A DNA stretch of 64,000 nt, taken from positions 1-64,000 of the forward strand of contig JASAND010030606.1 of NCBI GenBank assembly GCA_030248195.1, written 5' to 3'. The position numbers and the translations under genes are program-made. A model generated the notes under the pieces. It was not told the DNA's origin. It ran no database searches and saw nothing but the letters and a program-made list of their open reading frames with translations. This document shows positions 10,204 to 29,710 of this stretch, one piece after another; position 1 is the stretch's first letter; every line of letters begins with the position of its first letter. Origin of the DNA: Trissonchulus latispiculum. Lineage: Eukaryota > Nematoda > Enoplea > Enoplida > Ironidae.

Positions 10204-10214
10204 GGTTCGATTCC
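10204..10214 (+). promoter_or_regulatory. Pol III B-box / tRNA-like remnant in the LTR
   Basis: GGTTCGATTCC is an exact Pol III B-box, set in a T-arm-like context (CTGGG, loop, CCCGC) and preceded about 50 bases upstream by CTTAAAATCCG, reminiscent of an anticodon arm. An identical copy stands at 27,479-27,489. I could not fold a full cloverleaf, so this is at best a tRNA-derived relic. Confidence 0.45.
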
Positions 10215-10235
10215 CGCATCATAATTGTGTAACTA

Positions 10236-10768: not shown

Positions 10769-10800
10769 CTCTATTTGATTTCGGCAGTGAACAAATAGAG
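10769..10800 (+). other. Leader hairpin near the LTR end
   Basis: Arms CTCTATTTG / CAAATAGAG enclose a 14-base loop just before the LTR end; the copy in the 3' LTR is intact. GTAAGT strings near 10,672 and 10,990 are candidate splice donors for the downstream acceptors. Confidence 0.45.
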
Positions 10801-11083
10801 CGAGAATCGACCCCTCTCGCCGTTCTCTGTTGACTACAGACTAAACGAACTCACAGCAGTACCCCTAATCAGGTTGGCTGTAGAGATCCCCGATTTTGGC
10901 AAACTACTTTTCGGGAATCTGGTACATAACTTTGTCTAACCAGGCAAACGTGCTGACCTTCTGTGTAACCAGAACTCGTCTGACCTAAGTAAGTGAAGTA
11001 AGCCAACACGGTTTAATAACAAATTATATCAAATCAATTATCTTGGAAGCGAAAGAAATTTCTTGGCCAGTCAGTTCATTAAA

Positions 11084-11308
11084 CGGTAAACTACAGTTTT
11101 TGGAGCCCCCAGTGAGGACCATCCTGCGAAAACAATCCCATTGGAAATCCTGCCAGTGAGGATCATTCTGCGAAAACAATACCATTGGAAATCCTGCCAG
11201 TGAGGAGATTTCACGACCTAACGATTAATCATTAAGATCAAACGAGGATCACTCCTAACTCTGTCAAGAAGTCAGCTAAGACCCTACCGACCAGCTCTAG
11301 AAGAAAAC
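11084..11308 (+). other. Untranslated leader with candidate primer-binding site and 44-bp repeats
   Basis: TGGAGCCCCCAGTGAGGA at 11,101-11,118 has the TGG start expected of a primer-binding site; the tRNA is not identified, and it lies 17 bases after the LTR end, farther than usual. From 11,109 to about 11,207 a 44-bp unit (CCAGTGAGGA...TTGGAAATCCTG) occurs twice plus a partial third copy, so part of the candidate site is itself repeated. Confidence 0.5.
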
Positions 11309-12442
11309 ATGGATCAATTTGACCCTGCTGATGATAATGGAAACGGACCCCCAAATGTGGGCCCTCAACATGGACCACCTGGACCCCCAGGTGGAGTACC
11401 TCCTCCCCTCAACCCACAAATGTCACAATTGGTGTTCCCTCAAGTACCTTTGCTGCCAAATGGGAATATTGAAGATCTATTAGGCCAACTCCGTGATAGC
11501 ATTCAGAACCAGGCCATTGCCGCCTCCTACCGAGATATGCCTACCTATTCCGGAAAAGATCACGAAAACTTTGATGATCACCTCGTCAATTACGAGAGAT
11601 TCAGTCAGCGACTCAATCTGGACGATTATCAGAAGGTCATGAACATCTCGTCAACTCTCAGAGGCAGAGCTGCGGAAATCTTCAAATGCATGCCCAGAGG
11701 CGCCATGCAACAAAACTACTGGGAAGCCTCTGTCCGAGCCCTCAGAGAATATATGATTCTTCCCATGACTGATATGCATGCCAAGCTGTTCAGTATCAGA
11801 CAGATGCCACACGAGTCTGTCGCGGATTTCTCTCTCCGACTACAGAAATATGCCCGAATCGCCTGGGAAGACAGAGGAGATCCTGACATGTTGGAAGACA
11901 TCAAATTGAAAGCCTTTCTCATTGGGTTGCGGAATGAATTCAAGCCGCATGTCCCCATGGATACGGATGATTATTCCCTTGCCTTCAAAAAGGCACGAAA
12001 AGCGGAAGGTGTTTATCCAGGAGAAGGAACTCCTGCCTTCTTGGAAGTGGATCCTGAGGCAGCTATTCCGAGCGCAAATCTCGCCGGTCCCGCCCGTCTG
12101 AATACCATCAGATCCCTGGTCCAGAGCACAGCCGTGCTCGCTAATGAAATAAAAGGAATCAAAATTTCCTCCCCTGAACAGTCAAAATCTGTCTCTCCCC
12201 CAGAAGAGGAAACGATAAGATCCCATTCCCTAATGCCTTCCGATGCTTCAACTGTGGAAGAGCTGGACATTCAAAGCGCGAATGCCGATCACCTGGAGGT
12301 GGAGCCTGCCGACCCAGAAATGATTATTCAGGCCCTCCGCGTAACAATTACAACAACAACAGCAACGGCAATAATGGGAATCCCAATAACTACAGATCTA
12401 ACAATGGACAGCCCAGGTACCCTCAGAACGGAAATGGAATGA
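11309..12442 (+). CDS. gag: Gag: matrix-like region and Ty3-type capsid
   Basis: The ATG at 11,309 follows the leader directly. Residues 1-40 are Pro/Gly rich. Residues about 80-235 resemble a Ty3/Gypsy capsid, with TLRGRA at 116-121, an N-domain-like WEASVRALREY, then a C-domain with ESVADFSLRLQKYARIA and LKAFLIGLRNEFK at about 169-212. The zinc knuckle expected after the capsid is missing from this frame but appears in the -1 frame at 12,244-12,285, so the last part of this frame (from about 12,180) is probably out of phase. Gag assembles the particle shell. This is the best preserved coding region of the element. A programmed -1 shift is possible, but I see no convincing slippery heptamer; a small indel is simpler. 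Confidence 0.85.
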   Translation: MDQFDPADDNGNGPPNVGPQHGPPGPPGGVPPPLNPQMSQLVFPQVPLLPNGNIEDLLGQLRDSIQNQAIAASYRDMPTYSGKDHENFDDHLVNYERFSQRLNLDDYQKVMNISSTLRGRAAEIFKCMPRGAMQQNYWEASVRALREYMILPMTDMHAKLFSIRQMPHESVADFSLRLQKYARIAWEDRGDPDMLEDIKLKAFLIGLRNEFKPHVPMDTDDYSLAFKKARKAEGVYPGEGTPAFLEVDPEAAIPSANLAGPARLNTIRSLVQSTAVLANEIKGIKISSPEQSKSVSPPEEETIRSHSLMPSDASTVEELDIQSANADHLEVEPADPEMIIQALRVTITTTTATAIMGIPITTDLTMDSPGTLRTEME

Positions 12443-13410
12443 ATCGAAGCTATAATGACCGATATCCACCCCGAAACAGACCTTCGGGACAGCATCAACA
12501 ATACCCTCAGCCCAGACCTCAGTGGAGCAGGAATGACGGACGAAATGCTGCCGAAGCTGTTCACGCTCCCTATGGATCCAGATTTGCTGATGTGGGTCAA
12601 CAGAGAAATGCTCCCTCCATGAATCAAGTTATTGGAGCTGAACCGGAGAGGAAAACTGCTTATTTCCCGCCTGAAAAGTCCAGCTTGCCCACTCAGATTC
12701 TACAATTGGAACAAGAAATCAAGGATCTGGGAGGCCAGTACTTCTGTATCCCTCCCTATGTTAAGGTTGAACAACCGAAGGAGAAATCCACCTATACGCT
12801 GAATGCAGGAAAGGATTCCGCGGATCCAGAAACTGAGCGACTGGACCGTGAACTGTATTCCCTGCCTATGTATCAGAAGCCGATGTCGGTCACCCATCCT
12901 CGCACCCATAGACTGGAAGAACCTCAGACCATAGAGTATGGCTACCCTTCCCATGTGAAACAAAGACTTTCACAAGATTCATCCTCCACCTCCTCTCCCT
13001 CCGAGTGGAATCCAGAAAAGGAAAATTCCCCTGAACAACCAACCGATGAGGCAATCCAAACGACTCGATTACCGACGAAGAGATTCCCCGGACCTTATGA
13101 TAAAGAACAGTCAAGGAACCAAACACGAGGACGGTCATTGGGACGCGGACGAGGATTGCGAAGAAGCCCACGATGTCATGATTTTACTCAAGCCTATCCT
13201 GCCCCCAGAATTCAATCAGTCCCACCTTCTGACGCCTTGGCCATCGGATTGGGAGAGGCAGTGCGGGAATTCAGGATACAACTAGGCCTGTCTCCAACTC
13301 CCCAGATTGGACCTATTCTCAGTCACCAGGATAATGGAATTATTTCTCTGTATCCCAGTCCAGCTCCTCAGGTCCAAAGCTCAACCCCCAAATTGACATG
13401 CCTACAGTGA
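12178..13410 (+). CDS. Nucleocapsid zinc knuckle and proline/glutamine-rich Gag extension
   Basis: In the -1 frame relative to the capsid, open from just after a TGA at 12,175. Positions 12,244-12,285 encode one CCHC zinc knuckle, CFNCGRAGHSKREC (C-X2-C-X4-H-X4-C), followed by an Asn/Arg/Pro-rich stretch typical of nucleocapsid. The rest, to 13,410, is polar and low in recognisable structure, with an Arg-Gly block (RGRSLGRGRGLRR). This is where protease and polymerase would start in an ordinary Ty3-like element; I see no DTG/DSG, no YxDD and no zinc-binding integrase motif. It ends inside the next frame with a 13-base overlap. Confidence 0.7.
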   Translation, partial: TVKICLSPRRGNDKIPFPNAFRCFNCGRAGHSKRECRSPGGGACRPRNDYSGPPRNNYNNNSNGNNGNPNNYRSNNGQPRYPQNGNGMNRSYNDRYPPRNRPSGQHQQYPQPRPQWSRNDGRNAAEAVHAPYGSRFADVGQQRNAPSMNQVIGAEPERKTAYFPPEKSSLPTQILQLEQEIKDLGGQYFCIPPYVKVEQPKEKSTYTLNAGKDSADPETERLDRELYSLPMYQKPMSVTHPRTHRLEEPQTIEYGYPSHVKQRLSQDSSSTSSPSEWNPEKENSPEQPTDEAIQTTRLPTKRFPGPYDKEQSRNQTRGRSLGRGRGLRRSPRCHDFTQAYPAPRIQSVPPSDALAIGLGEAVREFRIQLGLSPTPQIGPILSHQDNGIISLYPSPAPQVQSSTPKLTCLQ

Positions 13411-14393
13411 TGCAAAGTGCGCGAAAAGTGCTTGCACATGGTAGTATGGCGATGGACCTGCTGCATGCGCCGCTTGTCCCAGTAACTAAAACAATGGATC
13501 AAGGAGAAACAAAGGAAAAGGATCAGAAACAACAAGACCATGATCCCGTGCCTATCCGATCAAAGCAGGAATATCAAATCAAGTATGTTTCCGTTGATAT
13601 GGGCCCGGTAATGAAATTTGCCAGAAGGGTCTTGGATCGATTTGGAGAAATGCTCACAGAAGAAGAAATGCTTCGAGCCCTAGATTCCAGTATTTTCATG
13701 ACCCAAGATGGAACCTCTTCTCCTCTCCAACAGGAATACCAAATCACCGATCTCATCAAACACCCAGGGAAAAGTAAGTTCAAGCCCATTGATCAGGACG
13801 ACATCTACGAAGTTAGCAGGCGGATACTGAAGAGATTGGGAAGATCCGTTTCTGATGAGGAATTCTACTGTTGCCTAGACAGTGATATATTGGAAGCTCC
13901 TGAAGAATCTCCCCATGCTGGACGATTAGATTTATGGGTTGAAAATCTATTGGATCCCCCTATTCCCCTGACATTGGGTCTAAGGGATGACAACAAGGAA
14001 AACATTGATCCCTTACTTCAGGGTAATTCAATTGACCTATTCCAGGGAAAGCTGATCCAGAACGATCTAATGGACGGCCCAACAGATACATCCAGTTCAG
14101 ATATGTCAGAAGGTTCAGGCGAGGAATTGGACAATGCCACAAAGAAACTTCGAACTCGAGAAGTCCGAGTGAACCTAAATGCTGTTGAACCCACCGTCAT
14201 AAAGAGCAGAAAGAATCGGAAGAGTAAAAAGAAAAGGAAGAAAGTTATCAAAAGGATAAAGAAGACAATTGGAGAAATTCACATTTCTGAATCTGACCTC
14301 TGTCCCCAAGACATCAAGTTTCTCCGTAGACTCTTGAAAGATGTCCGGAGTAAGGAAAGAAAGCGTGCCCAAAAGGAGGAACATCGTATTTGA
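13398..14393 (+). CDS. Triple-repeat basic protein of unknown function
   Basis: The frame is open and contains a repeat of about 35 residues three times: near its start (PTVMQSARKVL), near residue 65 (VDMGPVMKFARRVLDRFG, ending LDSSIF) and near residue 130 (IDQDDIYEVSRRILKRLG, ending LDSDIL). Copies two and three share the pattern xDxxxxxxxxRRxLxRxG...EEEx...LDSxI. A Lys/Arg-rich block near residue 275 could be a nuclear signal or bind nucleic acid. No known family was recognised. The end of the frame lies in a 20-bp tandem duplication (14,373-14,412) that shifts the phase, so this protein and the envelope leader downstream may once have been one product. Confidence 0.6.
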   Translation: MPTVMQSARKVLAHGSMAMDLLHAPLVPVTKTMDQGETKEKDQKQQDHDPVPIRSKQEYQIKYVSVDMGPVMKFARRVLDRFGEMLTEEEMLRALDSSIFMTQDGTSSPLQQEYQITDLIKHPGKSKFKPIDQDDIYEVSRRILKRLGRSVSDEEFYCCLDSDILEAPEESPHAGRLDLWVENLLDPPIPLTLGLRDDNKENIDPLLQGNSIDLFQGKLIQNDLMDGPTDTSSSDMSEGSGEELDNATKKLRTREVRVNLNAVEPTVIKSRKNRKSKKKRKKVIKRIKKTIGEIHISESDLCPQDIKFLRRLLKDVRSKERKRAQKEEHRI

Positions 14394-14412
14394 AGGAGGA
14401 ACGTCGTATTTG
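14373..14412 (+). repeat. 20-bp tandem duplication that shifts the frame
   Basis: Two adjacent copies of a 20-bp unit (AAGGAGGAACATCGTATTTG, then the same with one G for A). Twenty is not a multiple of three, so the duplication moves the reading frame between the triple-repeat protein and the envelope leader. Confidence 0.85.
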
Positions 14413-14980
14413 GCAAATGAAAAGAGAAAGGGAACGATGCTGGGAATCATATCAGCAATTCTTGCTCGCCCGAGCCCTAATGGAAGCCCTTCATCCCGTC
14501 AGAAGAACGACTGATCCCCCTGTAGTACCTAAAAGAAGAACTCCCACACCGACACTCAAGAATAATCTCATATCAAGCTCTGTTACTACAACCGTACGAC
14601 TACCAAGAGAAGAGAAGGATCTATCTCCCCCCAAGGATGAACACAATAAACCTCCTATGCCTAAATCACCTAACAAGGTGAAAGGTTCAATTTCACTACC
14701 TTTTCCCATTTTAATAAGGTGGATCGTCGTTGGCTTAATGATAGCCATATTGATCCCCTGCATTCAAGCACAGGAAAGTGAGGACTATTTTACTCAAAAG
14801 GCTAAAGCGATGAACACCATGGTATCCACTAAGTGGGGATTAGCCCTATCCCCTAAAGGACTAATGGCAACTTACACCAGAACTGAATATGTCCCAATTC
14901 TGATCCACATGAAGATGCCCGAGCCTCCCAGAGGCAAGAAAATGAAGGCCTGGCTCTTATGCGTCTGTCAAATTAACTAA
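14390..14980 (+). CDS. env: Envelope leader and N-terminal surface part (interrupted by a MITE)
   Basis: A basic N-terminal region (KRERERCWESYQQ) is followed by a Pro-rich stretch and, at about residues 102-125, a hydrophobic segment ending CIQA-QESED that fits an internal signal peptide. The next 70 residues would be ectodomain. The frame runs into a terminal-inverted-repeat element at 14,960 and ends within it; its natural continuation is in the frame that restarts at 15,547. The first codon at 14,390 is not ATG; the first Met is at 14,417. Env proteins of this type mediate cell entry in errantivirus-like retroelements; this copy is broken. Confidence 0.65.
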   Translation: MKEERRIWQMKRERERCWESYQQFLLARALMEALHPVRRTTDPPVVPKRRTPTPTLKNNLISSSVTTTVRLPREEKDLSPPKDEHNKPPMPKSPNKVKGSISLPFPILIRWIVVGLMIAILIPCIQAQESEDYFTQKAKAMNTMVSTKWGLALSPKGLMATYTRTEYVPILIHMKMPEPPRGKKMKAWLLCVCQIN

Positions 14981-15545
14981 GGTACACTGCGTGCAGCAAT
15001 TGTATAGAAATTATTTTATTTCTATACAGATTGCAATAAAACTGCATAGAAATTGTTTTAATATTGATTAAATCTGTGTAGATTTGCTACTTTTATAAAA
15101 GAAGTCTGCATAGAAATGGATATAAATCTATGCAGAATTGCTTTGTTTATAAAGGGAGTCTATGCATAATCTACCCAGAAATTAGTAAAACGAAAACGTA
15201 AGTTGTGCACATTCTGTACAGATTTATAGCCCTAAATTACGTCATGTGCCATGAAATGTGTAGTGAAGATATGCAGTCACAACTATGTTTTAGACAGAAT
15301 TCTTATAGACAATAATTACCAGGTGCAACAATTCTGCACAGCTTTTGAGGAAGCAATATTTAAATCTTCACAGAAACTCCTTTTCGAAATTATAATTCTA
15401 TGCAGAAATCGAAATAAATCTGTGTAGAATTCTCATCTTCCATAACATATCTGTACAGAATTCTTTATATTAGTTTGCTTATTGATAAAATGCATTTCTA
15501 TACAATTGCTGCACATGGTGTACCTTAGTTAGTTTGACAGACGCA
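14960..15545. mobile_element. MITE of 586 bp inserted in env
   Basis: Ends are inverted repeats of about 52 bp with three mismatches, beginning TGCGTCTGTCAAAYTAACTA. Flanking trinucleotides are TTA on the left and CTA on the right, near the TWA duplication of PIF/Harbinger elements. The inside is AT-rich, non-coding, with repeated TCTRTGTAGAATT-like text. It splits the envelope frame, whose two sides remain compatible in phase, so the insertion came after env was assembled in this element. Confidence 0.88.
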
Positions 15546-15546
15546 C

Positions 15547-15840
15547 TACTTCTGTACCCTTTGTGAGGAACAACCGCATGAAGTGCCTGAACACTTGTTA
15601 TCTAGATGTGATCAATGTGGGCAAAACCCTGAACGAGACAACGGCGTATCCTGTATTGCGTGTAAAATACCCTTCGCCAACTCCACCAAACAGACGAGGA
15701 AACATTGTCAGGCCTATACTACGTATGGACAGAGGGTAAATGATTGGCTCAACGACTGCCCACAAGAGCTCCACCTAAACGAACTGATCAACAACGTCAC
15801 TGAAGAATATCATGAGATGTACGGTATTATTCGTCTGTGA
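15547..15840 (+). CDS. env: Envelope surface subunit, middle fragment
   Basis: Right of the MITE the frame starts with FCTLCEEQ and contains cysteine pairs (CTLC, CDQC, CIAC) and two N-glycosylation sequons (NST, NVT), as expected of a folded ectodomain. It ends at a TGA at 15,838, where the following envelope frame overlaps by four bases, a probable single indel. Confidence 0.6.
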   Translation, partial: YFCTLCEEQPHEVPEHLLSRCDQCGQNPERDNGVSCIACKIPFANSTKQTRKHCQAYTTYGQRVNDWLNDCPQELHLNELINNVTEEYHEMYGIIRL

Positions 15841-16700
15841 TGAAAATCATATGCGATAAAAGCCCCATCCTGTGTAACACCTCGAAACCCAAATATCAGG
15901 AATATAATGAATCCCTGTATGCGGATCATGGGTACCAGCATGTAAAATCCAAATTCCCTCTCCAGAGATCTAAGCGAGCCGTTGGGACCATTATTGGCAT
16001 AATTGGACTTGGCATGTCCATATCCAATACTGTTAATCTGGGATCCGTAAAAGATAAAGTCAATGCCATTATTGAAGCAACTCGGAAATTAGATGAACAA
16101 GTGATCGCTCATACTGAAACATTGGAGAAGTTAGTTGAAGCGAATGAACAAGTTTATTCATTCATGCATTATTCACTACAGGAATTGGTTGGACTGATCA
16201 ATTCTGCACGATGCGAAGCACTGACCATGAGTACTCAGGTGCACTATTCATTAATTGTGTTTAACTTTGAACATTCCCTCAAGCACAGTATTGATAGCGT
16301 CATGGCCGCAGGATTGGATGGACGAATTTATCCTAGCCTTATCAACTACAAGATCATCCGTGACATAGTGAATAAACACGCCCAACTTAATCAGACAATT
16401 TTAAGGGACGAACCTAGATTGATTTATAGATTTGGGAAGATTTATCCTGTACGAATGGACATCAGAAAGCTACTTTTTGGGTTTATCATGGAAATACCCA
16501 CTCCCACACGAGAGGATGTGGCACCCATTTATGAGATCAGTAATGTTGGATACAATGATCCATCAAATCATGCTCAAATGAAGGCCCCACTTCCGCGTTT
16601 CGTTAGGCACGAAGTCACCCATCACAGTTCCGAATTTTCCGAAGTCAAGCTCGAAGAATGCCAATCATCACCCGGACTATGGATCTGTGGACATCATTGA
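15837..16700 (+). CDS. env: Envelope: furin site, fusion peptide and heptad region
   Basis: Residues 44-47 are RSKR, a furin-type cleavage site, followed at once by the Gly/Ala/Ile-rich AVGTIIGIIGLGMSISNT, a fusion-peptide candidate. Next comes a long region with heptad-like spacing (about residues 60-110) that could form a coiled coil. This order is that of errantivirus and baculovirus F-type fusion proteins; the family assignment is by layout only. The frame ends at 16,700 after a Cys-rich ECQSSPGLWICG stretch while the ectodomain clearly continues in another frame, so a frameshift lies near 16,690. Confidence 0.75.
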   Translation: MMKIICDKSPILCNTSKPKYQEYNESLYADHGYQHVKSKFPLQRSKRAVGTIIGIIGLGMSISNTVNLGSVKDKVNAIIEATRKLDEQVIAHTETLEKLVEANEQVYSFMHYSLQELVGLINSARCEALTMSTQVHYSLIVFNFEHSLKHSIDSVMAAGLDGRIYPSLINYKIIRDIVNKHAQLNQTILRDEPRLIYRFGKIYPVRMDIRKLLFGFIMEIPTPTREDVAPIYEISNVGYNDPSNHAQMKAPLPRFVRHEVTHHSSEFSEVKLEECQSSPGLWICGHH

Positions 16701-17944
16701 TTTCTACGCCCCAGTCAGCTTGTCTCAAAGCCATTGTTTCAGCTACACCTATTGATTCCGCAAATTGTAGACAACAGATGATGGTGAAAGTTCTGACTCC
16801 CGATACGGATTTTGCCTCCACGCCAGCAGGTGTATTGATTAGAACCAGCCATTCTGAAATCATGCTTACACAAACCCCACAACTGCAACATGTGTCGCGG
16901 GGAGAAACAATCGCAGTACCCAATAACGGTGTGATATGGCTAGAACACGGATCCTATAACCACATCATAGTTAGTGATCTGGTGCTAACCAGCGCAATAG
17001 AGGTGATACAATACTCAGCACCCCTCATTACTTACAGAGTTCCTTTTGAAGCCCCTGATTTGGGCGTAGTCCCTATTCAATTCACTGATTTGGAACGAGC
17101 AGAATATGAGAACAAAGCTGTAAAGAAATTACTGGAAAAACATCATCGCACCGCTCCACTCGTCATCCACCCGCTCAACATGAATGTCTGGACTGCCTTC
17201 ATAATCATTCTTATCCTGATTGCAGTGGGAGTAATCGTTACAATTTGGTTTTCCCCGTGTATGGGTGAATTCAGGGATAATCTCCGTAAACGAATACGTG
17301 GATCATGTTTTGGTCTAGGACAAAGACTGAGTAGATCGGGAACAGGAACACAAAGAATTCCGACCTCCCCTCCAGCCTCACCTCCCATCAGTTCAAGTCC
17401 GTCTGAACTACGTAGCCAGTCACCCCTGCTTGAAAGACCTTTGCATCCAATGCACACCGCCACGGAAAGCAGAGCTAAAAAAGCTAGACCCCGCTCCTAT
17501 GCTTATACACCTGGGAGAGGACAGCTGAGATTCGAAGATATTCCCCTGGAACCACTACCACCCTATCCACCCTGCTCCCCGGAATCGGGATATCCTAACC
17601 CTATTAGACCTAGAAGACCTCTATTGTCTGGACCAGAAGAAGATCATCAAGGAGACGAACCATTTCATCAACTTCACCAATACAGAGCTGGATCATATGA
17701 ACGGGAAAGCCCGCCACTGCGCGCCGCAAGTCCTGATACCGGAAGAGCTGGAGCTCGAGATCTAACTCCACCACCATATCAAGGTAATCGATCTAGAGAT
17801 TCATCCGCCGGCAGGAGAGATAGGATCTGGTGTCTGATGGATGAACTCGAATATTCATCTGAAGACAGAAACCCAAGAAACGAGAGCACATTCTCCGCGG
17901 CCCTCAAAAATACATCCCTCAACGACATCCTCACCTCCAGTTAG
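16658..17944 (+). CDS. env: Envelope: membrane-proximal part, transmembrane helix and long proline-rich tail
   Basis: Real coding probably begins near 16,690, where this frame takes over. Cysteines in SACLKAIV and SANCRQQ fit the disulfide-rich stem. A single hydrophobic helix AFIIILILIAVGVIVTIWF lies at residues 180-198, followed by about 230 residues rich in Pro, Ser and Arg, an unusually long cytoplasmic tail. The last 100 bases overlap the next gene in a different frame. Confidence 0.72.
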   Translation: MPIITRTMDLWTSLISTPQSACLKAIVSATPIDSANCRQQMMVKVLTPDTDFASTPAGVLIRTSHSEIMLTQTPQLQHVSRGETIAVPNNGVIWLEHGSYNHIIVSDLVLTSAIEVIQYSAPLITYRVPFEAPDLGVVPIQFTDLERAEYENKAVKKLLEKHHRTAPLVIHPLNMNVWTAFIIILILIAVGVIVTIWFSPCMGEFRDNLRKRIRGSCFGLGQRLSRSGTGTQRIPTSPPASPPISSSPSELRSQSPLLERPLHPMHTATESRAKKARPRSYAYTPGRGQLRFEDIPLEPLPPYPPCSPESGYPNPIRPRRPLLSGPEEDHQGDEPFHQLHQYRAGSYERESPPLRAASPDTGRAGARDLTPPPYQGNRSRDSSAGRRDRIWCLMDELEYSSEDRNPRNESTFSAALKNTSLNDILTSS

Positions 17945-18920
17945 GCAAAGTGAGTCTGAAACTGTAAAACAATACTACCACAGAGTTCGAGACTATGCTG
18001 ATATTGTTTATGGTGACTACTCTAACTCAGAACCAACTATGGTCAGTCTGGGAAGGATTTTTATCCTTGGACTGCAGAGGGAAATACGCCTCCAAATGCC
18101 TACCTCTACTGGCCGATTGGATGAGTTATATCTATTGGCTCTCTCAGTCGAGGATGATCTCTACAAGGAAGGTCCAGGCACTTCATCTCGGATGAGAACC
18201 CCCACCCCTGAAGCACAGGCGACTTCTGTCACAATGGCAACACCAAAAGTCTCCAACAGCACATCCCTATCTCCCGCGGATTTTCGTGCTTGTAAAGAAA
18301 TGCTGAGTACCATTGAACAAAGGAAGGATGAGTCAGTAAACCATTTCTATGAACGGTTGCTCATGTTTGCGAGAGAGGTATATCCTGAACGACTAGCTGC
18401 AAGGTCCATTGATGCCTACCTCAACTTGCTCTTCATCGCTGGACTAAGAAATGAAATACGTGATAGGACAGAAATGTATCCTGATCAGGCCAAGAGTCTG
18501 TATGACCTGTACCAGCCTGCATTGGTGGGAGAACGGTATTTACCAAAGGAATGTCATGAAGTTCCACCCTCTAACTACCCCTCTCAACCTACGGTTGATA
18601 AACCCCGAGTCCAAAGGACAACCCCTCTTAAAGAACAAAGAGATCATAGACGTCGCACCACTGAAGGTAGGATAACTGTCCCCCCCCCCGGTTTCGATGG
18701 AGGATACTTTGATGAAGAAGATGCTCACATGCCCCTAAATTACCTACCTCCACGCGAAGACTCCAGACATCCTTCCAGGGATCCACCAACATCACGATAT
18801 CACTCGGACATGCGATCAGTTGACCCCCGATCAACCCCACAAGTTCGAGAACGAATTCGGAATCGGTCCGGAGCCCCTTGGATGCAGGAATCAGAAGAAC
18901 CTGCTTCCCCAGAATACTAG
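17841..18920 (+). CDS. Protein with two tandem Gag capsid C-domain-like repeats
   Basis: Two copies of a capsid C-domain-like pattern occur: residues about 37-108 (SESETVKQYYHRVRDYA...FILGLQREIRLQ) and about 160-232 (DESVNHFYERLLMFARE...FIAGLRNEIRDR). Both align by eye with Gag residues 168-235 of the same element (HESVADFSLRLQKYARIA...FLIGLRNEFK). The remainder is Arg/Pro-rich and disordered in appearance. A stand-alone Gag-derived gene downstream of env is unusual; it might bind or modulate particles, but this is inference. The start is uncertain: the first 30 residues overlap the env tail frame. Confidence 0.65.
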   Translation: MNSNIHLKTETQETRAHSPRPSKIHPSTTSSPPVRQSESETVKQYYHRVRDYADIVYGDYSNSEPTMVSLGRIFILGLQREIRLQMPTSTGRLDELYLLALSVEDDLYKEGPGTSSRMRTPTPEAQATSVTMATPKVSNSTSLSPADFRACKEMLSTIEQRKDESVNHFYERLLMFAREVYPERLAARSIDAYLNLLFIAGLRNEIRDRTEMYPDQAKSLYDLYQPALVGERYLPKECHEVPPSNYPSQPTVDKPRVQRTTPLKEQRDHRRRTTEGRITVPPPGFDGGYFDEEDAHMPLNYLPPREDSRHPSRDPPTSRYHSDMRSVDPRSTPQVRERIRNRSGAPWMQESEEPASPEY

Positions 18921-19293: not shown

Positions 19294-19833
19294 TAGCTTT
19301 ACAAAAAGTGAAAGGTTGTTTTAGAGAAGATTTGTAATATACGGATAATGAATTATTAGTTATAAGTTATTTGTGACAAATCTAGCTAAGTAAACATTAT
19401 AAACTATTATGTAACGTTAGTAACTGTAAACCAGAGTTGCCAGGGGAGAAATGCTCCCTCCGTCTCACCGACCCGTTGTATCATGTATGCATGTATTGTA
19501 GCTGACCACGCACCAGGTAATTGTATTAGTGAATATAAGTAATTGTAATGTAAAACATAAGTATAGCTTTACAAAAAGTGAAAGGTTGTTTTAGAGAAGA
19601 TTTGTAATATACGGATAATGAATTATTAGTTATAAGTTATTTGTGACAAATCTAGCTAAGTAAACATTATAAACTATTATGTAACGTTAGTAACTGTAAA
19701 CCAGAGTTGCCAGGGGAGAAATGCTCCCTCCGTCTCACCGACCCGTTGTATCATGTATGCATGTATTGTAGCTGACCACGCACCAGGTAATTGTATTAGT
19801 GAATATAAGTAATTGTAATGTAAAACATAAGTA
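19294..19833 (+). repeat. 270-bp tandem duplication
   Basis: The segment starting TAGCTTTACAAAAAGTG at 19,294 is repeated with no difference I can see, starting at 19,564. The identity implies a recent event or an assembly duplication. Confidence 0.93.
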
Positions 19834-20081: not shown

Positions 20082-20091
20082 TTGGTTTTAG
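20082..20091 (+). promoter_or_regulatory. Candidate splice acceptor for the NADAR gene
   Basis: TTGGTTTTAG ends exactly where the ATG begins. With a similar site at 21,900-21,913, it suggests that downstream genes are expressed from spliced transcripts using donors in the LTR or leader. Confidence 0.45.
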
Positions 20092-20568
20092 ATGAACAAT
20101 CAGCAGCAGGCCCATTTGCACCAAGCTGCCCTCAGTCAATTGCGGAGGATTTCCGCCTTCCAATTACCCTATGTTCCACAGGATCCTGGAAATTTCTTGT
20201 ACTTTCGGAGTAATTCAGAGGAATATCCTTCCCTTTCTAATTTTGCCAAACATCCAGGAAAGGATGAAGATGGGAAGTTTATTCAGATTAAACATCTCCG
20301 ACGACCATGTTGGACGGCAGAAAATCATTACTACGGACCTTGGCGTATCTATCGGGATCATTCACTGTCGCTAAGAAGATCATCAAAAGTCCTTGTCATC
20401 GATTCGCTAAGGCGGAGGATCAGCAGGATATCGACCTCCGCCGGCACTTGCCTCTCGCCCACACGCACAAGCCTTTTAAGGCTCTTGTTATGGCAGGGGT
20501 ACTCCTGTCTAAGTATCAGATTCCCTATTTTAGGGATGAGCTGTTCAGCACAGGCAATCGCCGCCTGA
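20092..20568 (+). CDS. NADAR-domain protein, N-terminal half
   Basis: The ATG at 20,092 directly follows an acceptor-like site. Residues 36-51 (LYFRSNSEEYPSLSNFA) match the opening of NADAR/YbiA proteins (F-Y-S...Y..LSNF), and CWTAENHYY at 73-81 matches the conserved W-T-x-E-H-Y motif. About 14 extra residues stand between these blocks compared with the bacterial form. Beyond about residue 88 this frame loses similarity and the domain continues in the frame at 20,307-20,825, so a -1 shift lies near 20,340-20,375. NADAR proteins cleave N-glycosidic bonds in riboflavin intermediates or remove ADP-ribose from guanine in nucleic acid. This assignment is by motif and order only. Confidence 0.72.
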   Translation: MNNQQQAHLHQAALSQLRRISAFQLPYVPQDPGNFLYFRSNSEEYPSLSNFAKHPGKDEDGKFIQIKHLRRPCWTAENHYYGPWRIYRDHSLSLRRSSKVLVIDSLRRRISRISTSAGTCLSPTRTSLLRLLLWQGYSCLSIRFPILGMSCSAQAIAA

Positions 20569-20825
20569 TTGAAGCCACTGGCGACAGATTTTGGGGAGTT
20601 GGCGCTAACCTCATCGACATCAGGGTGCGCGAAGCCAACTCATCAAAGGAAGCTGTTGACCGATGGGTGTCAGCAAATTCGGAGACGGCCCAAGCCGGAA
20701 ACATCCTGGGACAATCTCTTGAGTTCTACAGACTCTATCTCAGAGATCCGGAGGGTCTTTATCCCTCCTCACCCCGAGTAGCTGTAGTGGGCGGATGTGC
20801 TCTACAGAATGATCAGGTTATTTGA
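20307..20825 (+). CDS. NADAR-domain protein, C-terminal half
   Basis: Useful coding starts near residue 20 (VAKKIIKSPCHRFAKAED, the helix after the EHYY motif in the family). Then come ALVMAGVLLSKYQIPYFRDE, LFSTGNRRLIEATGDRFWGVG at about 79-99 and GNILGQSLEFYRLYL at 131-145, which fit the family signature K-F-x-Q-N-x-x-L...L-L-x-T-G-x-x-x-L-x-E...D-x-x-W-G-x-G...G-x-N-x-L-G-x-x-L-M-x-x-R. About 30 residues are inserted between the WG and G-N-x-L-G blocks. A TGA at 20,823 is followed in the same frame by the next gene with no other stop, so both may belong to one product. Confidence 0.75.
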   Translation: MLDGRKSLLRTLAYLSGSFTVAKKIIKSPCHRFAKAEDQQDIDLRRHLPLAHTHKPFKALVMAGVLLSKYQIPYFRDELFSTGNRRLIEATGDRFWGVGANLIDIRVREANSSKEAVDRWVSANSETAQAGNILGQSLEFYRLYLRDPEGLYPSSPRVAVVGGCALQNDQVI

Positions 20826-20861
20826 CTGATCAAACAGATTAGTGGGTGCAACAACCCGCTG

Positions 20862-21557
20862 TTGCTGCCTATCTACCGAGCCACGCCTGCCTGGTGTCAG
20901 CGGGTGACCATGGCCATTCGGTCTCCGTTGCTCACTCGAATCTATGTGATCCCAGAAATCAATGTGGCGAATACAACGGAAGCCGATAAGGTCTATAAGG
21001 AAGAAGCCATCAAGTTGGAAGAGGCTCTAAAAGGGGCTCCACCGTACAAAGAGCCTTTTCCAGTGGTCTGGGCCATGCCCACCCTAGTGTATGTGCCTGC
21101 TTGTGGAAATGAGATCAAGCAGATGAAGAGCGACCCCGCATGGGCTGGGTTGATCTGGGGCTGCTACACCTATCAGGGTGATGGCACTTACTTCCGTCCC
21201 CAGGACCCAGTGCCCATCCTTACTGGCCAAGTCTATGCCTACCCGTCCGAGACGGAACATCGGCTGATCCAATCGTGGACAGCGAAGGATATAAAACGCT
21301 ATTCCTATTCGGACTACAAGGACAAGCGCCCGCACAAGGATAATCCAATTTACCGCCCACATAGAGAGCCGTCTCCCCCCGTCGCTGGTCCCTCCCACCG
21401 AAGTCATCAGCAAAACCGCCAACCGAACCGTCGGCCAAATCGTCGTCCGAAGCGCCCACAGCCCAGACGTGACTCTCCGCCCCTTCCCTTACTATCCCCT
21501 CCCCTTAGCGGACTATCCTTGGGTCCTCCGATGCCCAAGAGAAGCCGGCGTTATTGA
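20862..21557 (+). CDS. Unknown protein, in frame after the NADAR gene
   Basis: Open in the same frame as the NADAR C-half, separated from it by a single TGA and 12 codons; the first codon listed is not ATG (first Met at about 20,895). Residues about 20-135 look globular (VVWAMPTLVYVPACGNE, WAGLIWGCYTYQGDGTYF), and the last 60 residues are strongly basic and Pro-rich (repeated RRPNRRP). I do not recognise the globular part. It could be the C-terminal domain of the NADAR protein if the TGA is a mutation. Confidence 0.55.
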   Translation: MLPIYRATPAWCQRVTMAIRSPLLTRIYVIPEINVANTTEADKVYKEEAIKLEEALKGAPPYKEPFPVVWAMPTLVYVPACGNEIKQMKSDPAWAGLIWGCYTYQGDGTYFRPQDPVPILTGQVYAYPSETEHRLIQSWTAKDIKRYSYSDYKDKRPHKDNPIYRPHREPSPPVAGPSHRSHQQNRQPNRRPNRRPKRPQPRRDSPPLPLLSPPLSGLSLGPPMPKRSRRY

Positions 21558-21929
21558 GTGACAGGGCCTTTGGCTGTGCAAAGTGTATATGTTACTGTGT
21601 AAATTAATTTGTTGTATTAATATCATTTGTGTTGAATTGTATTGTACTCATAATGAAAGTGGGGAAATGTAACTAATGGATCTGAGAAGAGGAATTTCTT
21701 CAGCAGAACATGTTTCCTTTTTGTACAGGTAATTGAAATTGGAATTAATCAGCTAACTGTACCATAGCCAGCCTATCTTAGAAGATAGTGAGTTTCCAAA
21801 CCCTAATAGTTGCTCCCTTGATTGGATATGTCAAGACGCGAACGCAACGCAATATTCCAACATGAACAATAGAATTCATTAATCGGTTGAGTTAATGTAT
21901 TCTCTGTTTTCAGTTAATCAAACCTCACG
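21558..21929 (+). other. Interval with candidate splice acceptor
   Basis: No gene. TCTCTGTTTTCAG ends at 21,913, a strong-looking pyrimidine tract plus AG, 17 bases before the ATG of the next gene. Confidence 0.5.
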
Positions 21930-23252
21930 ATGCTACCCGGAAATGCTGCCAATTCTACTCCCCGTTCCTATTCCCCACTAATGTCCCAAGCCACCGGAGT
22001 GGCATTCCGAAACCCAATGGTCATCCAGGGCCTTCAGGCACCTGCCCCAGTCTATATTGGCCAACCGGCCATCCGGCACCGCGCTCCGGTGCCAGCCCCA
22101 ACGATCCCATTCGTGGGATTCCGGCCAATCACGATGGCCTCCCCTAAGTCCCAGCCAGACATCTGTCCTGAGTGTGGAGGACCCTTTGCCACATCAGGAG
22201 AAGCTCTCTCCCCCACGCGGTGTGTGGTCGGCGTTCCCCATTCAGCTGGGAAATGCACTGTGTTGGAGGATCTAAACGATCACCCATTCCATGTGCCGGA
22301 ATACTACCAGGCAGAACATCTCCTGAAAATAATGTCCAAGGGTAATCCATATCCCAGCACCATGTACCATCAGGGGCACAAGGCTAAATCGGATGAGTTG
22401 ACTTTAGGTCAACGTATCAATCTCATCCATTACGATAACCGGATCCTGCCCACTCCGGGCATGACCCCTCACGACGAAATCCAGTCGGCCTTCAGGAACT
22501 TCCTGCTGGTACTCAACCTAACGCGCCTGACTGAGGCGGACATGGCACAGTTTATCAGAAATTTAGAAGATCTAAGACAGGACGTGCTCATGCTGATCAA
22601 CAAACCTGGATTTAGGGTTGAGCAGCCGATCTACCCAGAGCCTCCGTTTGGTATGTTACCTCCCTACCCTACACTCAGATACCCGAATGGCCCACCATCA
22701 GCTCAGCGATTCCCTTCCTCAGATGCCTCCCCCAAGCCGGAAATCACCACCTTTTTAGCGGAGGAGGATCGGGAAGAGGGTGATGGTGCAGAGGAAGATT
22801 CTGTCCCTCCGACAGGAGCTACCGCCAGCCTTACCGTTACCACCGAGAAGCCGGATCCAGGTATAGGCATGGGGGAATTGGATACCCTTCCTCCCTTTGA
22901 GATATGTCCTCCCCTCATACCGGATGAGTGGAAGGATAAGGTCCCGGAATATGTCGAGAAGCAACTTGATGCTCTCAGAAGCTGCCTGGACGATAAAATT
23001 ATCCCTATCGTCGAATACTGGCGCCAGGTCAGTGAGCTAAAAGTGATCTGCCGCGAAAAGGCTGCGGCCCTCCGAGAAGCCTCTGGAGAGCCTTATCGTC
23101 CAGAGTCACTCCTGCCCGAAGAAGAGATGGATAACTATCTCTATGAGATCATGAACTACGATCTCTACAGGTATGAGGGCTACCGAAGTGAAAGCCCCGA
23201 TGACCATCCCGACACTGATTGCAGCCCCTTCGGTTATCCTGACACTGATTGA
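21930..23252 (+). CDS. Unknown 440-residue protein of the retroelement
   Basis: The longest uninterrupted frame in the window. The ATG lies 17 bases after a splice-acceptor-like site. The N-terminus is Pro-rich; CPECGG at about residue 80 with later Cys/His could bind a metal. Residues about 123-220 look folded (FHVPEYYQAEHLLKIM; HDEIQSAFRNFLLVLNLTRL), then follow an acidic, Pro-rich middle and a helical, acidic C-terminus. EYYQAEHLL recalls the E-H-Y-Y-Q-A motif of NADAR, but the other NADAR signatures are not evident. Function unknown. Its integrity beside broken gag and env is notable. Confidence 0.6.
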   Translation: MLPGNAANSTPRSYSPLMSQATGVAFRNPMVIQGLQAPAPVYIGQPAIRHRAPVPAPTIPFVGFRPITMASPKSQPDICPECGGPFATSGEALSPTRCVVGVPHSAGKCTVLEDLNDHPFHVPEYYQAEHLLKIMSKGNPYPSTMYHQGHKAKSDELTLGQRINLIHYDNRILPTPGMTPHDEIQSAFRNFLLVLNLTRLTEADMAQFIRNLEDLRQDVLMLINKPGFRVEQPIYPEPPFGMLPPYPTLRYPNGPPSAQRFPSSDASPKPEITTFLAEEDREEGDGAEEDSVPPTGATASLTVTTEKPDPGIGMGELDTLPPFEICPPLIPDEWKDKVPEYVEKQLDALRSCLDDKIIPIVEYWRQVSELKVICREKAAALREASGEPYRPESLLPEEEMDNYLYEIMNYDLYRYEGYRSESPDDHPDTDCSPFGYPDTD

Positions 23253-24891: not shown

Positions 24892-26470
24892 TGTAATGAA
24901 AAGACTTTCATTAATGGTCAAAGTTGGTTGAAATAGCTTATCAAGCTAATTATGTGAAGGAATGTGCTGAGGTCTAGTCAATTGGAGATTATTATGTTTC
25001 ACATGTTCCATCATATTTGCCAGAATCAAATGTCCAAGTTATATTTGTATAGATATCTTGTATTTGAAAGAAAATATCAGAGTTGCCAGACTACAACCAG
25101 TATTTAATATTCCGGTCTCTACCCCAAAGGTTGAATTAATAACAGGAGTAGACTCTTTTAATCATTTAGTAGGAGTATCCCACCACCTAAAATATTAACA
25201 ATAACAGAACGCATACATAAAACTAATATCTAAATCAAAGAATCTATTGATCAGAGCGAATTGGCAGGAGATCTACTTGAAGAGTTTGGTCCGGGATGGG
25301 ACCTTTTCAGTCATATTGTCATCTGTGGCAGTTAAGAAATCCATGTCGCAGCAATTTTAGTTTTAATGGCATAAAAGATTCATGCAAATTTGTGTTTATG
25401 ATTGTAGAAATTCCCTAAAGTGCAGTTTCAAGGCCATAAAGTGCCCAAATATTGGAAGATGGTCACTTAGCTAGGCTTAAAATAATCATATAGGCAGTTA
25501 TTTAATACAAAATAAGTTTATAATTAGGTAGCTAGTGTTTATATGAGTTAATTGGTAGTAATTAGACCTTAATTAGTTAGTATGTTTAATTTTTACCTAG
25601 AAAACAACTTAGGCTCATTGGAAAGGCAATTTTCTCCTGATTCCAAAAATGCAATCCCCACCTTTTAACGTAGAATACAAATATGTTATTAGTTTTAGGT
25701 AAGAAATTACGTACGAATTTTTATGCACATTTTCACGCAATTGCTCCCTCAGTCCTTGGTCTTTTGAGGACACTGAGTTTCTGGCAATAGGGAGCAGTTG
25801 TTGTTAAGGTTGCTGTGTTGGCTTCTCTTGTTTGTGGCCATATGTTTACCTGAAATTTCAAAGTAGGGGCCCAGGACAAGAGAAGCCAAAGAAAATTAAG
25901 AAATTGAAAATAGACATATAAATTGTGCCCAAAGATGGCACTTAAAATTATTTTTCCCGTAATCGGCCGGGATTGGCCTGATTTTTAAGCCTCATTTCAG
26001 TCGAATTCGTGACAGTTGAAAATTAGATCCGAAACTTCCCCCTTTGGTTGCATTTACATGTCAACCAAAATTTTATAGAATTCTAGAAAGTTTCGGACCC
26101 CGAAATTAATCAGAAAAGTCGTCAGCTGGGGGCAATATTTCGCCATTATCGTTAATCTTCCCCTGGCTGACCACCAGGCTCAAAAAGAGCCTGGATCCTG
26201 CAATGTTAAAGGTGGCAAGCTTCTAGAAAGTTCTAGAACTTTCTAGAAGCTTTGCCTTAAAGTCAAAGCCTCGTCGACGGAATCGTGCTGTCACTGGGCT
26301 GTCAGAGAGCTGTCAGCCCAGTCCCAAAATTTTAGACTCACTCAGAGTTCGCTGAGGGCCGACCGAGAGCGGTCGGTCAAATTTTCTTCTCTGAGTCCTT
26401 ATAGTGGGCTGTGGTTTGCAGCACCTAGGACTGCGCACTCACTATAAATTTTTAGAAAAAAGATAGGGAA

Positions 26471-26496
26471 CTTTTCTGGCCTTCGGGCCAGAAAAG
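26471..26496 (+). other. 11-bp hairpin with TTCG loop, intact only in the 3' LTR
   Basis: CTTTTCTGGCC and GGCCAGAAAAG are exact complements around TTCG. The 5' LTR has lost the left arm (about 7,748-7,760), so the two LTRs differ in hairpin number. Confidence 0.75.
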
Positions 26497-27510
26497 ATGT
26501 GAGTTGGTACCCGCGAACACCTGCAATTTAAGGAGCCCTTGGGTCTTCTATACCCGGCTCAAAACAAATTAGCCTAGGCAAAACAGATTAGGAATTTTAC
26601 ATTGTTGGCCTTCGGGCCTATTTTTTTATATATTATGTGATTTTTGGCCTTCGGGCCCTTTTTTATGCGGCCAATTGGCCAACTTTTTTATTATTCCAAG
26701 CCACGGCCCTAGAGGCCAGTTTTGCATTGTGAAGAGGGCCCTCGTGGCCATGGGGATTTGTGAAATAACGGGATTTTGAGTGGGGACCCACCCCTAAGGT
26801 TGAGATAGAGGGTCCCTTAATTACGACCCTGAATTTTATTAAGCTAGTTATAGGGATTTTTGCACCCCACAGCCGGCAACTAGATGTTGCCGGCCATACT
26901 CCGCTATGAAGGCGCTCCAGATTTAAAAGTCACTGTTCATGTAATTGTTTATTTTAGCGTTAGGTCGGCTTTGAAATTATTAGGTGTCTAAAATGTAGGT
27001 TATTTTAAATCGAGTCTAAAACTCTGACACTTTACAGTATCTTGTTATTTTATAATTTGGAATTTTGGGGAGGAATGGCCGGCTTCCTCCGATCAGTAAA
27101 TTAAAATATGTTTTTCGTAGTTTTGTTAAGCTTTTGCTTAGCAATTATTATTCACTCAGGCTTTCACAAAGTTCTAATCAAGTTTCTTTTAAACGAGGAA
27201 AACATTAGATTTTCCTAAAATTCGAGTTACCAAATTTCAAAAAGTTCCCCAAAGTTCACGTTAGTTAAAACAGCAACATTAGTGAGAAAATTACGGAAAT
27301 GTGCATAAACTAGTAGTTTAGGGAAGTACCAGTATTAGTACCAGTACAAGTATTAGTAAATAGACGTTTATGCACGAATTTTCAGTTTATGTGATCAATT
27401 CTAAACGTTTTTGGCAATTTCGATATGACAAGTTCATGCTTAAAATCCGAAAGCGGAAAGAGTGAATAATGGTTGCTGGGTTCGATTCCCGCATCATAAT
27501 TGTGTAACTA

Positions 27511-27714
27511 ATGGGTTTTAACCCATTTGATTCAAGTGCGGAGTTCACGGAGATCTCGCCTGAAGAAGTCAGTCTGCCTCTGATCGATATTAGTGGTCAA
27601 TTCATTTCGGATTCAGATTATTGGGATCTTTTGGAGCCGGAAGAGCTCAGTCAATTCAGGACATTTGGGAACCAGTATACAGCTGTAGGTGCTCTAGTTA
27701 ATTTTGGAGTGTAA
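27511..27714 (+). CDS. Conserved 67-residue frame in the 3' LTR
   Basis: Copy of the frame at 10,236-10,439, same length, four amino-acid differences. See that entry; coding status is uncertain. Confidence 0.3.
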   Translation: MGFNPFDSSAEFTEISPEEVSLPLIDISGQFISDSDYWDLLEPEELSQFRTFGNQYTAVGALVNFGV

Positions 27715-28671
27715 CGGAATCTTTAAGGCAGAGACTAGTCGTACCAGCACCGGAATCATTTGTGGTGTTTAAAACCAACAGTAAAACTGTGAAAATCGTC
27801 AGTGAACTGAAAGTTATTCCTGATCCTTGAATTCTGTAACCTCTAATCTTAAAACCTTATTTCACACTCAAATTAGCTGAAAATGTGGCTCTCAGCTCTC
27901 CTCACTCTACTGGGGGTGGAGATCCCCATTGCTCTGCTTTAAACGTCCAGTTACTAGCTGAACCTAAGAAGTTATTAGTGGAGAAGATACAACAGAAGGC
28001 CTATCTAAATTAATCAGAACTTTAATTTGACTGTTTAACTTTTAAACGGCTATCTCCCGGTACCACCCCAACCTCTCCTAACCTTGTATTGTCTGATCCT
28101 CATGAACTGGAGTTGATCTGCAGGAACCTTTCCGATAGCAATCTCTAAAGTGGGCTGTGGAGTCCTTGTGACTACTTTACAGCAACTGGGAGCTCACCCA
28201 AAGTCCGAGCCTATCCTCAATTGTATTATTATTATTATTAAATATTGTTATTATTATTAATTAGTATTGGTTTTTGGTCCTTTGGTACTGTAAAGGACAG
28301 ATAAAGAGAGTGCACCGACATAACACGCACGTAAAGCACATAGGACACCAGTAGTTGAAGTGAGTTAGGTTATAGCATCGGATCACAGTCGGAATAGAGA
28401 AATAACAATAACCTGAGGAAGCGCTTAGTCCTTGGCTGAACTTGCGTAATCTGATATACCATTTGGGGTAAAGCTAATCTAGGTTTAATCAAATCCGTCC
28501 CTACAGAGAGTCTGGCCACTCTGGTATATTGACCACACATGCGCAATGCCTATACTGGGCCTATACATGTATAGGCCAGAATCCGAAACCCCCGCAAAGT
28601 GCGCAGCAAAATTTTTGACCCCCGCGCAGCGCGAAGCGCTGCGCAGAACATCTTCAGCATTTTTGGAGTCC

Positions 28672-29135
28672 TCGCGCAGAGTAACGCGTGCCTGCACGGG
28701 GTCAACACTGTCGGAACCCTCGCGCAGAGCAACTCGTCCCTGCGCGGGGTCAATACTGTGGGAACCCTCGCGCAGAGCAACGCGTGCCTGCGCGGGGGTC
28801 AGAACTGTTGGAACCCTAGCTCAGAGCAACAAGTCCCTGCGCGGGGGTCAACACTGTCGGAACCCTCGCGCACAGCAACGCGTCCCTGCGCGGGGTTCAG
28901 CAGTTCAGCACTGTTGGAACCCTCGCGCAGAGCAACGCGTCCCTGCGCGGGGGTCAATACTGTGGGAACCCTCGCGCAGAGCAACGCGTCCCTGCGCGGG
29001 GGTCAATACTGTGGGAACCCTCGCGCAGAGCAACGCGTCCCTGCGCGGGGGTCAATATTGTGGGAACCCTCGCGCAGAGCAACGCGTCCCTGCGCGGGGT
29101 CAATACTGTGGGGAACGCTCGCGCAGAGCAACGCG
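28672..29135 (+). repeat. 49-bp GC-rich minisatellite
   Basis: About nine to ten tandem units of roughly 49 bp, each with GGAACCCTCGCGCAGAGCAA, CGCGTCCCTGCGCGG and GTCAATACTGTG. The unit is much richer in GC than its surroundings. Long frames on both strands are by-products of the repeat. Confidence 0.93.
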
Positions 29136-29710
29136 TTCATTTAATGTTAGGAGTTTGTGGTTGGCTTTTATGCCCTTTTAAATATTTTTCGAATTCTTTC
29201 AACAAAATTTCTAAACTCTCTCAAAAACCAAAAAAAGTTCAGTTTCTGATACTCAGAAGCCAACATTAATAGATTGCTTTCTAAAAGTGTTGAGCTACAA
29301 CACTTTCGAGAAAAATTTTGCGTCTTTGGCGCACCGACTTTTGCTTCGATCTGTCAACAAATTTTCAAATCAACGGCCCATGTCCAGATAAAGGTCACTT
29401 TATGCCAGAGTTGGAAGGTGGACGCGGGTACCCGCGGGTATCCTGCGGGTCCAGTGGACATGGACAGAGGTTTTGGGAGGGTTTTTCCTGGGAGTGTATG
29501 GGTTCCGGAATCTCTGGGTTCCGAAGGTTCTGGGGTTTCTAATGTCTCTATAAACTTACATATACTACTTACGGTGGTGTTTTGCACAAAAATACCCCGA
29601 CAGCGTTTCTACATAGTTGTCCCGATTTCTGCTTTCCAGCTAAAGTAATCTCTTGACAAAGCTGAGAAAAGCAGGCAAAATCCAGGTATGCAAAATTATA
29701 ATAAACAGGT

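Follow-up and report, generated by a model that had tools for sequence, protein, structure and literature searches.

A NADAR-superfamily gene, assigned by homology, in giant envelope-bearing LTR retroelements of the nematode Trissonchulus latispiculum

Does a giant retroelement of a nematode carry a NADAR (YbiA-like) gene as a lasting part of itself, and what could such a gene do there? The question is raised by a stretch of 64,000 nucleotides from Trissonchulus latispiculum (Nematoda; Enoplea; Enoplida; Ironidae; contig JASAND010030606.1 of assembly GCA_030248195.1, positions 1 to 64,000, forward strand), hereafter the window, in which a first-pass annotation made from the letters alone had placed a NADAR domain at 20092-20825, inside a long terminal repeat (LTR) retroelement. 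By homology, the gene is assigned to the NADAR superfamily (PF08719). The window element is a decayed short form, without protease, reverse transcriptase (RT), integrase or OTU-like domain, of a clade whose long members have the order gag, F-like envelope, protease, RT, RNase H, integrase, OTU-like protease, NADAR and another accessory open reading frame (ORF).

The NADAR gene and its relatives in the genome

The gene spans 20092-21557 and is interrupted by one frameshift and one stop; the first-pass annotation had seen the frameshift correctly and had drawn the gene too short. The family blocks that it had read in order were recovered, with SLSNFA and CWTAENHYY in the ORF at 20092-20568 and the later blocks in a different frame at 20292-20825. 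A frame-by-frame Pfam search, the check it had named, succeeded in part: the second piece matched NADAR partially, over profile positions 86-160 of 163 (E 5.8e-7, 30.3 bits, below the cut-off of 35.1), and the first piece alone had no match in Pfam, NCBIfam or PDB. Single-sequence searches of PDB returned nothing useful. An intact relative of 488 amino acids (aa), in a single frame, covers profile positions 1-159 (E 2.2e-10, 41.5 bits) and aligns with the three pieces of the window gene at 88% identity over 82 aa, 96% over 162 aa and 91% over 197 aa, respectively. The candidate division of 20092-20825 and 20826-21557 into two genes was rejected, since the relatives have one frame.

The genome (734 Mb, 21,732 contigs) was searched with piece 2, and 150 of 531 candidate places were scored, the window's own included. 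A COX1-like stretch of this genome, preceded by an ND2-like one, reads best with AGA/AGG translated as serine; judged by eye against conserved residues, this fits a protostome. All 150 NADAR places match at E 1.8e-30 or better; 135 are stop-free, and 98 combine a stop-free match with a frame of 450 aa or longer, so that intact copies do exist. Five intact proteins matched nearly the whole Pfam NADAR profile at 41.5, 48.0, 37.5, 47.0 and 31.0 bits. Four pass the cut-off and the fifth (L038, 31.0 bits) falls below it; together with piece 2, they bear out the domain assignment. A profile built from ten relatives found the NADAR structure 8bau first in PDB (E 0.0059), followed by an unrelated deacylase (E 0.039, the match lying in the C-terminal part) and by YbiA (2b3w, E 0.37), and a profile-profile comparison linked the clade to the canonical NADARs of the same genome (95%, E 3.9e-8). 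The frames of the clade are about 470-590 aa long; their C-terminal region is conserved, and most have a basic tail, which is Arg/Pro-rich or SR-rich in 16 of 18 aligned copies, the remaining two ending early. An 812-aa frame at L012, in which NADAR is joined to the next ORF across a gap of about 700 bp relative to the window, was considered as a spliced fusion and set aside; the overlap of about 10 bp at the gap makes a deletion likelier than splicing.

The accessory-gene position behind a splice-acceptor-like site, as first described, is conserved. The bases before the NADAR ATG read as a T-rich TTTTAG, TTTTAGA, TTTTTAG or TTTTCAG(A) in 19 of 20 copies, the window among them, the exception being L038, which ends in TTTAGAAG. 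The 60 bases further upstream differ between families, and the retention of TTTTAG while other upstream sequence diverged supports the predicted splice acceptor.

Purifying selection on the domain, which the first-pass annotation had suggested looking for, was assessed through the ratio of nonsynonymous to synonymous substitution rates (dN/dS) in 17 chosen pairs, of which 11 had a finite dS and six a saturated one. The 11 pairs gave a dN/dS of 0.01-0.06 for the NADAR domain and 0.03-0.07 for the C-terminal region. The window's own piece gave 0.03-0.04 against three relatives, which points to a late decay of this copy.

Long and short forms of the element and the linkage of NADAR to OTU

The parent element was read from 9-kb stretches 5' of NADAR in seven copies and, in an eighth, from a single stretch lying farther upstream. 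In three copies (L043, L044 and L045) the genes for protease, RT, RNase H and integrase are accompanied by an OTU-like domain, which scores E 9e-5, 1.1e-7 and 5.1e-5 and 23.4, 32.8 and 24.2 bits, respectively (cut-off 23.3); the protease of L045 is split by the analysis cut and scores under the cut-off there. In L044 and L045 an F-like glycoprotein precedes the protease-to-OTU series, and the L043 stretch starts within the glycoprotein tail. The order protease, RT, RNase H, integrase is one which we take to be that of Ty3/gypsy elements, an assignment made by order and not by an RT tree; it is present in these three copies and was not found in the window copy. Two features of the arrangement stand out by position: the paramyxovirus F-like envelope sits between gag and protease and not after integrase, and an OTU-like cysteine protease domain follows integrase in the polyprotein of L043, L044 and L045.

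Short elements carry a module, here called X, where the long ones have RT to OTU. L039, L041 and L042 consist of gag, glycoprotein, protease and X, RT and integrase being unmatched in them, and in L040 only X was seen, about 7 kb upstream. These X-bearing copies (L039, L041, L042 and the window) share envelope and NADAR with the long elements and look like non-autonomous partners of those, with a diverged protease of their own. The sole library hint for X is a sub-threshold gag match (E 0.08). In L039, gag, glycoprotein and protease lie within one frame of 2,549 codons, and in L046 gag runs in a single frame reaching just short of the fusion domain; the open frames around OTU, of up to 3,841 aa, suggest that long elements encode gag to OTU in a single frame.

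Whether NADAR belongs to these elements can be judged from its place beside the OTU-like domain. OTU matches gave 477 candidate places, of which 142 were scored, and NADAR was sought within 6 kb. The 150 places of the piece 2 query put NADAR downstream of OTU, on its strand and no more than 6 kb away, at 48 of the 142; a second query from a distant member gave 132 rows and added 37 places once duplicates and second fragments had been dropped. The combined queries place NADAR downstream on the same strand at 80/142 OTU places, and no pair is arranged otherwise. The median distance from OTU match to NADAR match is about 1.1 kb, and NADAR is a separate frame with its own ATG. Two OTU relatives that the first query had left unpaired (L068 and L069) both have a NADAR gene on inspection. 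The window NADAR and its closest loci, 30 in all, have OTU upstream in 7 cases and X upstream in 16, and the accessory ORF found 3' of NADAR in the window is matched downstream of NADAR at 24 of the 30. Relatives of the element without the gene, together with an unrelated insertion to account for it, had been named at the outset as the pattern that would speak against an accessory gene; the 80 paired OTU places show a constant side and strand instead.

The same data bear on chance capture, that is, a host NADAR gene inserted in one copy of the element and without a role there. NADARs are very numerous in the genome (2478 candidates, 150 scored), which would make such an event easier, but the 80 concordant places hold NADARs down to about 30% mutual identity, the dN/dS values are low, and the clade stands apart from the other NADARs on the tree with 100/100 support, the program warning that long branches meet there. 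Chance capture is therefore extremely improbable, and a host-gene or chance-insertion origin was rejected on dN/dS and OTU linkage.

In the window, the LTR element measures 25.8 kb (5755-31532; Table 1) and has paired LTRs with inverted ends and a target-site duplication, which confirms the retroelement context first proposed. The LTRs open with TGTAATGA and close with TCATTACA, a single base differing at the end of the 5' copy, and their shared pieces are 95-97.5% identical. The 5' LTR has segments of about 0.4 and 1.5 kb that are not present in the 3' LTR, and the 3' LTR contains an insertion of about 3.1 kb (about 27829-30974), within which a 49-bp tandem array occupies 28618-29136. A 44-bp unit is repeated right after the 5' LTR (11109-11206), near the likely primer-binding region. 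Elsewhere in the genome, a 300-bp LTR piece had 40 scored matches among 261 candidates, at an identity of at least 90% and with the window's two included, and on contig C13163 two such matches bracket a NADAR copy. That the window holds a complete retroelement was rejected, since the searches of this copy found neither a protease nor RT nor an integrase belonging to the element; in L039 the protease lies directly upstream of X, a region gone from the window copy.

Table 1. Features of the retroelement in the window (positions of the window; relatives are copies in the same genome).
Feature	Position	Strand	Remarks
Target-site duplication CACA	5751-5754; other copy 31533-31536	.	placed by eye
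5' LTR	5755-11083	+	begins TGTAATGA; 5.3 kb; end placed by eye
gag	11222-12442	+	Retrotrans_gag E 5e-6; broken here; continuous frame with next part in relative L039
gag zinc knuckle (CCHC) and spacer	12178-14980	+	three overlapping broken frames
Insertion of about 595 bp	14956-15549	.	not in relatives L039, L041, L046; 52-nt inverted repeats near ends
F-like (class I type) fusion glycoprotein region	15538-17877	+	broken frames; Pfam Fusion_gly at 15816-16700
Module X	17838-18920	+	ends SPEY; occupies RT-integrase-OTU position of long elements
Perfect tandem duplication, 270 bp	19294-19833	.	relatives align as if single-copy
Splice-acceptor-like T-rich TTTTAG	20082-20091	+	immediately 5' of ATG
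NADAR gene, piece 1	20092-20568	+	N-terminal part of domain; homology stops after 82 aa
NADAR gene, piece 2	20292-20825	+	other frame; remainder of domain and start of C-terminal region
NADAR gene, piece 3	20826-21557	+	frame of piece 2 past the stop; C-terminal region, Arg/Pro-rich tail ending KRSRRY
Further accessory ORF	21918-23252	+	444 aa; acidic-looking; 3' of NADAR
3' LTR	24892-31532	+	ends TCATTACA; end placed by eye

Comparisons between copies indicate that the parts of the element have not always travelled together. L039 and L045 have a glycoprotein dS of 0.07 and a NADAR dS of 0.05 (measured at L011 and L014, the NADAR loci of these two copies) and are only 53% identical in the protease region, which suggests that the middle was swapped. 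L039 and L041 show a dS of 0.36 for the glycoprotein, 0.89 for gag and 0.74 for X, and their NADARs (L011 and L036) are 58% identical with a saturated dS; the finite dS of those three parts set against the saturated NADAR dS is read as an exchange of the NADAR cassette. Such cassettes thus seem to be exchanged between elements with nearly the same gag and envelope proteins. L044 and L045 are 95% identical in RT, 91% in integrase and 55% in OTU, and the NADAR next to L044 shares 43% identity with the window piece. Divergence is faster in the accessory genes than in the core.

Active site and likely function

In the available part of PMC11543638, roles are assigned to E43, K50, K75, E125, D130 and W133 of the P. 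nicotianae NADAR; E43 and E125 form its distal-ribose glutamate pair, and K50, whose counterpart K95 is essential in the E. coli C7 NADAR, contacts phosphates. We aligned 23 members of the clade, some of them nearly identical to each other, with 10 NADARs from elsewhere in the genome. Residues corresponding to E43, K75, E125 and W133 occur in 23/23 clade members and one corresponding to D130 in 21/23, a likeness to the P. nicotianae protein and to the DarT1-associated NADAR antitoxins, which have, as described in that part of PMC11543638, the same two catalytic-site glutamates, Asp, Trp and K75-equivalent. Unlike these proteins, the clade lacks the K50-equivalent, which is replaced in all 23 members (Leu in 20, Ile in 2, Gln in 1), whereas all 10 other NADARs, from a second retroelement family and from Polinton-like elements, keep it.

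The clade comprises true but diverged NADARs whose predicted hydrolase activity is uncertain. With the phosphate-binding lysine lost, cleavage and binding are about equally likely: a working ADP-ribosyl hydrolase and a putative binder or enzyme with a changed substrate are each a tentative proposition somewhat short of even odds, and roles that are neither of these take up the rest. To the element anatomy combined with a role directed at NAD or ADP-ribose, as enzyme or as binder, we give a probability of about 0.62. The NADAR protein would then be expressed from a spliced RNA and, judging from its basic tail, may be nuclear, where it could bind or trim ribosyl or ADP-ribosyl groups on the nucleic acid of the element or on host factors; such trimming or binding would aid the survival of the element against host ADP-ribosylation.

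The basic tail in 16 of the 18 aligned copies, the start of the gene at a splice-acceptor-like site and the missing lysine would also fit a protein that retains the NADAR fold but works without catalysis as a nuclear factor for RNA binding or export, with a Rev-like job, the tail doing the work and the domain only binding RNA or ADP-ribose; a giant element with a spliced gene may well need help with RNA export. A mere scaffold would not need the ribose-contacting glutamates and the Trp kept in every aligned member, the Asp kept in nearly all, or the strong selection, and we hold a Rev-like factor to be somewhat unlikely. Another enzyme, metabolic or concerned with RNA repair, could have small N-ribosyl compounds as its substrates, or else processed ends of RNA such as the tRNA primer, in place of ADP-ribosylated nucleic acid. 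Processing of RNA intermediates is proposed for Ectocarpus and oyster elements in the available part of PMC12477816, and riboflavin intermediates are named as substrates of bacterial and plant NADARs in that of PMC11543638, but no sequence feature of the clade favours such an enzyme and the loss of the lysine applies to it equally, so that it is unlikely.

Several observations, besides the replaced lysine, weigh against the preferred reading of an anatomically coherent element with a NAD- or ADP-ribose-directed protein. No NADAR was found within 6 kb at 62 of the 142 OTU places, and all 80 pairs fall in the first 125 OTU rows, the last 17 rows, which are the most distant, having none; at 7 of the 30 NADAR loci nearest to the window, neither OTU nor X lies within 1.5 kb. 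Fusion_gly matches reach 23-27 bits in the window and its relatives, under the cut-off of 29.8 wherever matched (in the window, E 1.5e-5 and 23.9 bits), which leaves E-values of 2e-5 to 2e-6 as the basis of the F assignment. Public proteins and viral contigs yielded no relative. A single-sequence AlphaFold model of piece 2 only gave a pLDDT (predicted local distance difference test) of 30.7, too low to judge the fold, and lends no structural support. A search of the genome for a DarT-type writer, the one type of writer searched for, found none, a further difference from the DarT1-associated NADARs.

Other carriers of NADAR and comparison with known systems

NADAR genes occur in further settings in this genome. 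At L007, L049 and L050 a long N-terminal part is fused to NADAR; that of L049 matches a 3'-5' exonuclease (E 8.5e-5, just below the cut-off), and that of L007 has no match. A kinase ORF comes next at L008 (Pkinase E 4.2e-18), as does an ORF similar by appearance only at L049. The sequence upstream of L008 (L048, contig C4104) has an ORF in the gag position, with a sub-threshold zinc knuckle (E 0.027), as well as a fusion glycoprotein of gB/class III-like type (E 2.3e-9), RT, RNase H and integrase. These loci make up a second retroelement family (L048 with L008; L049, L050 and L055), putatively of LTR type, in which the envelope precedes pol and NADAR is fused to an exonuclease-like part, with a kinase ORF in addition; its glycoprotein has 95 match rows in the genome, with frames of up to 2,640 aa. 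In L001-L006 and L051-L054, NADAR lies among genes labelled Polinton-like by eye, from proteins that the loci share and from the neighbours of NADAR; the latter are a TATA-binding protein (TBP, E 5.7e-37) and an A32-like ATPase (E 5.2e-9) in L001, and a YqaJ nuclease (E 1.1e-9) in L052. The window itself has a Polinton-like region at 43000-63700, mostly on the minus strand, in which the ORF at 54750-55076 is TBP-like (E 9.5e-12); positions 58604-58939 match a retroelement integrase (30% identity, E 2.5e-5).

The statement of the first-pass annotation that no LTR retroelement was known with NADAR does not hold. The available part of PMC12477816 (2025) describes NADAR in the Gypsy Pol of Ectocarpus and in ORF1 of oyster Tx1 long interspersed nuclear elements (LINEs). 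As in the Ectocarpus Gypsy-12_Ec32 lineage with its YbiA-family NADAR, a NADAR domain is conserved across a lineage of LTR retroelements; unlike there, the NADAR of the window clade forms a gene of its own behind integrase-OTU, the element has an envelope and the host is an invertebrate. The Tx1 LINE of Crassostrea gigas likewise places NADAR in an animal retroelement, but a non-LTR one and in ORF1 (PMC12477816, same part). LTR elements of bdelloid rotifers resemble the clade in a paramyxovirus F-like envelope (TelKA) and in enzymes encoded by ORF3 (DEDDy exonuclease, GDSL esterase), but their envelope is ORF3, whereas that of the clade sits between gag and protease; OTU does not appear in the available text of PMC5408684, and NADAR is not named in its abstract. 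The NADARs of phages, nucleocytoplasmic large DNA viruses, nidoviruses, hepe-like viruses and picornaviruses are proposed, like the one treated here, to counter host ADP-ribose systems; retroviruses enter the available part of that account only for 2H domains, and retroelements, retrotransposons, Polintons, Mavericks and transposons do not enter it (PMC9503650). A literature search that looked into a few of the papers listed, subscription papers and preprints being outside it, returned no report of OTU with NADAR, of the order gag-envelope-protease or of NADAR in an envelope-bearing animal retroelement. As far as searched, three features are apparently new: an element that carries an envelope, OTU as a neighbour, and NADAR in a gene of its own.

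The function of NADAR in animals is called unclear in the available part of PMC11125620. Its presence in two retroelement families and in Polinton-like elements within one genome, together with its retention under strong selection in one large retroelement clade, points to a conflict between host and invader that turns on ADP-ribose, and offers concrete proteins for assay. The natural contrast within the genome between NADARs with and without the essential lysine makes catalysis versus binding testable. A bolder proposal, quite unlikely to hold as a whole, is that the OTU-like protease and NADAR form a paired kit with which infectious animal retroelements strip ubiquitin and ADP-ribose marks, perhaps Deltex-type hybrids of ADP-ribose and ubiquitin, from their own particles or nucleic acid, and that the same host pressure accounts for NADARs in three classes of mobile element (LTR elements with an F-like envelope, LTR elements with a gB-like envelope and exonuclease-NADAR fusions, and Polinton-like elements). 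If true, it would reveal an unrecognised form of invertebrate immunity, the ADP-ribosylation of invader DNA or RNA.
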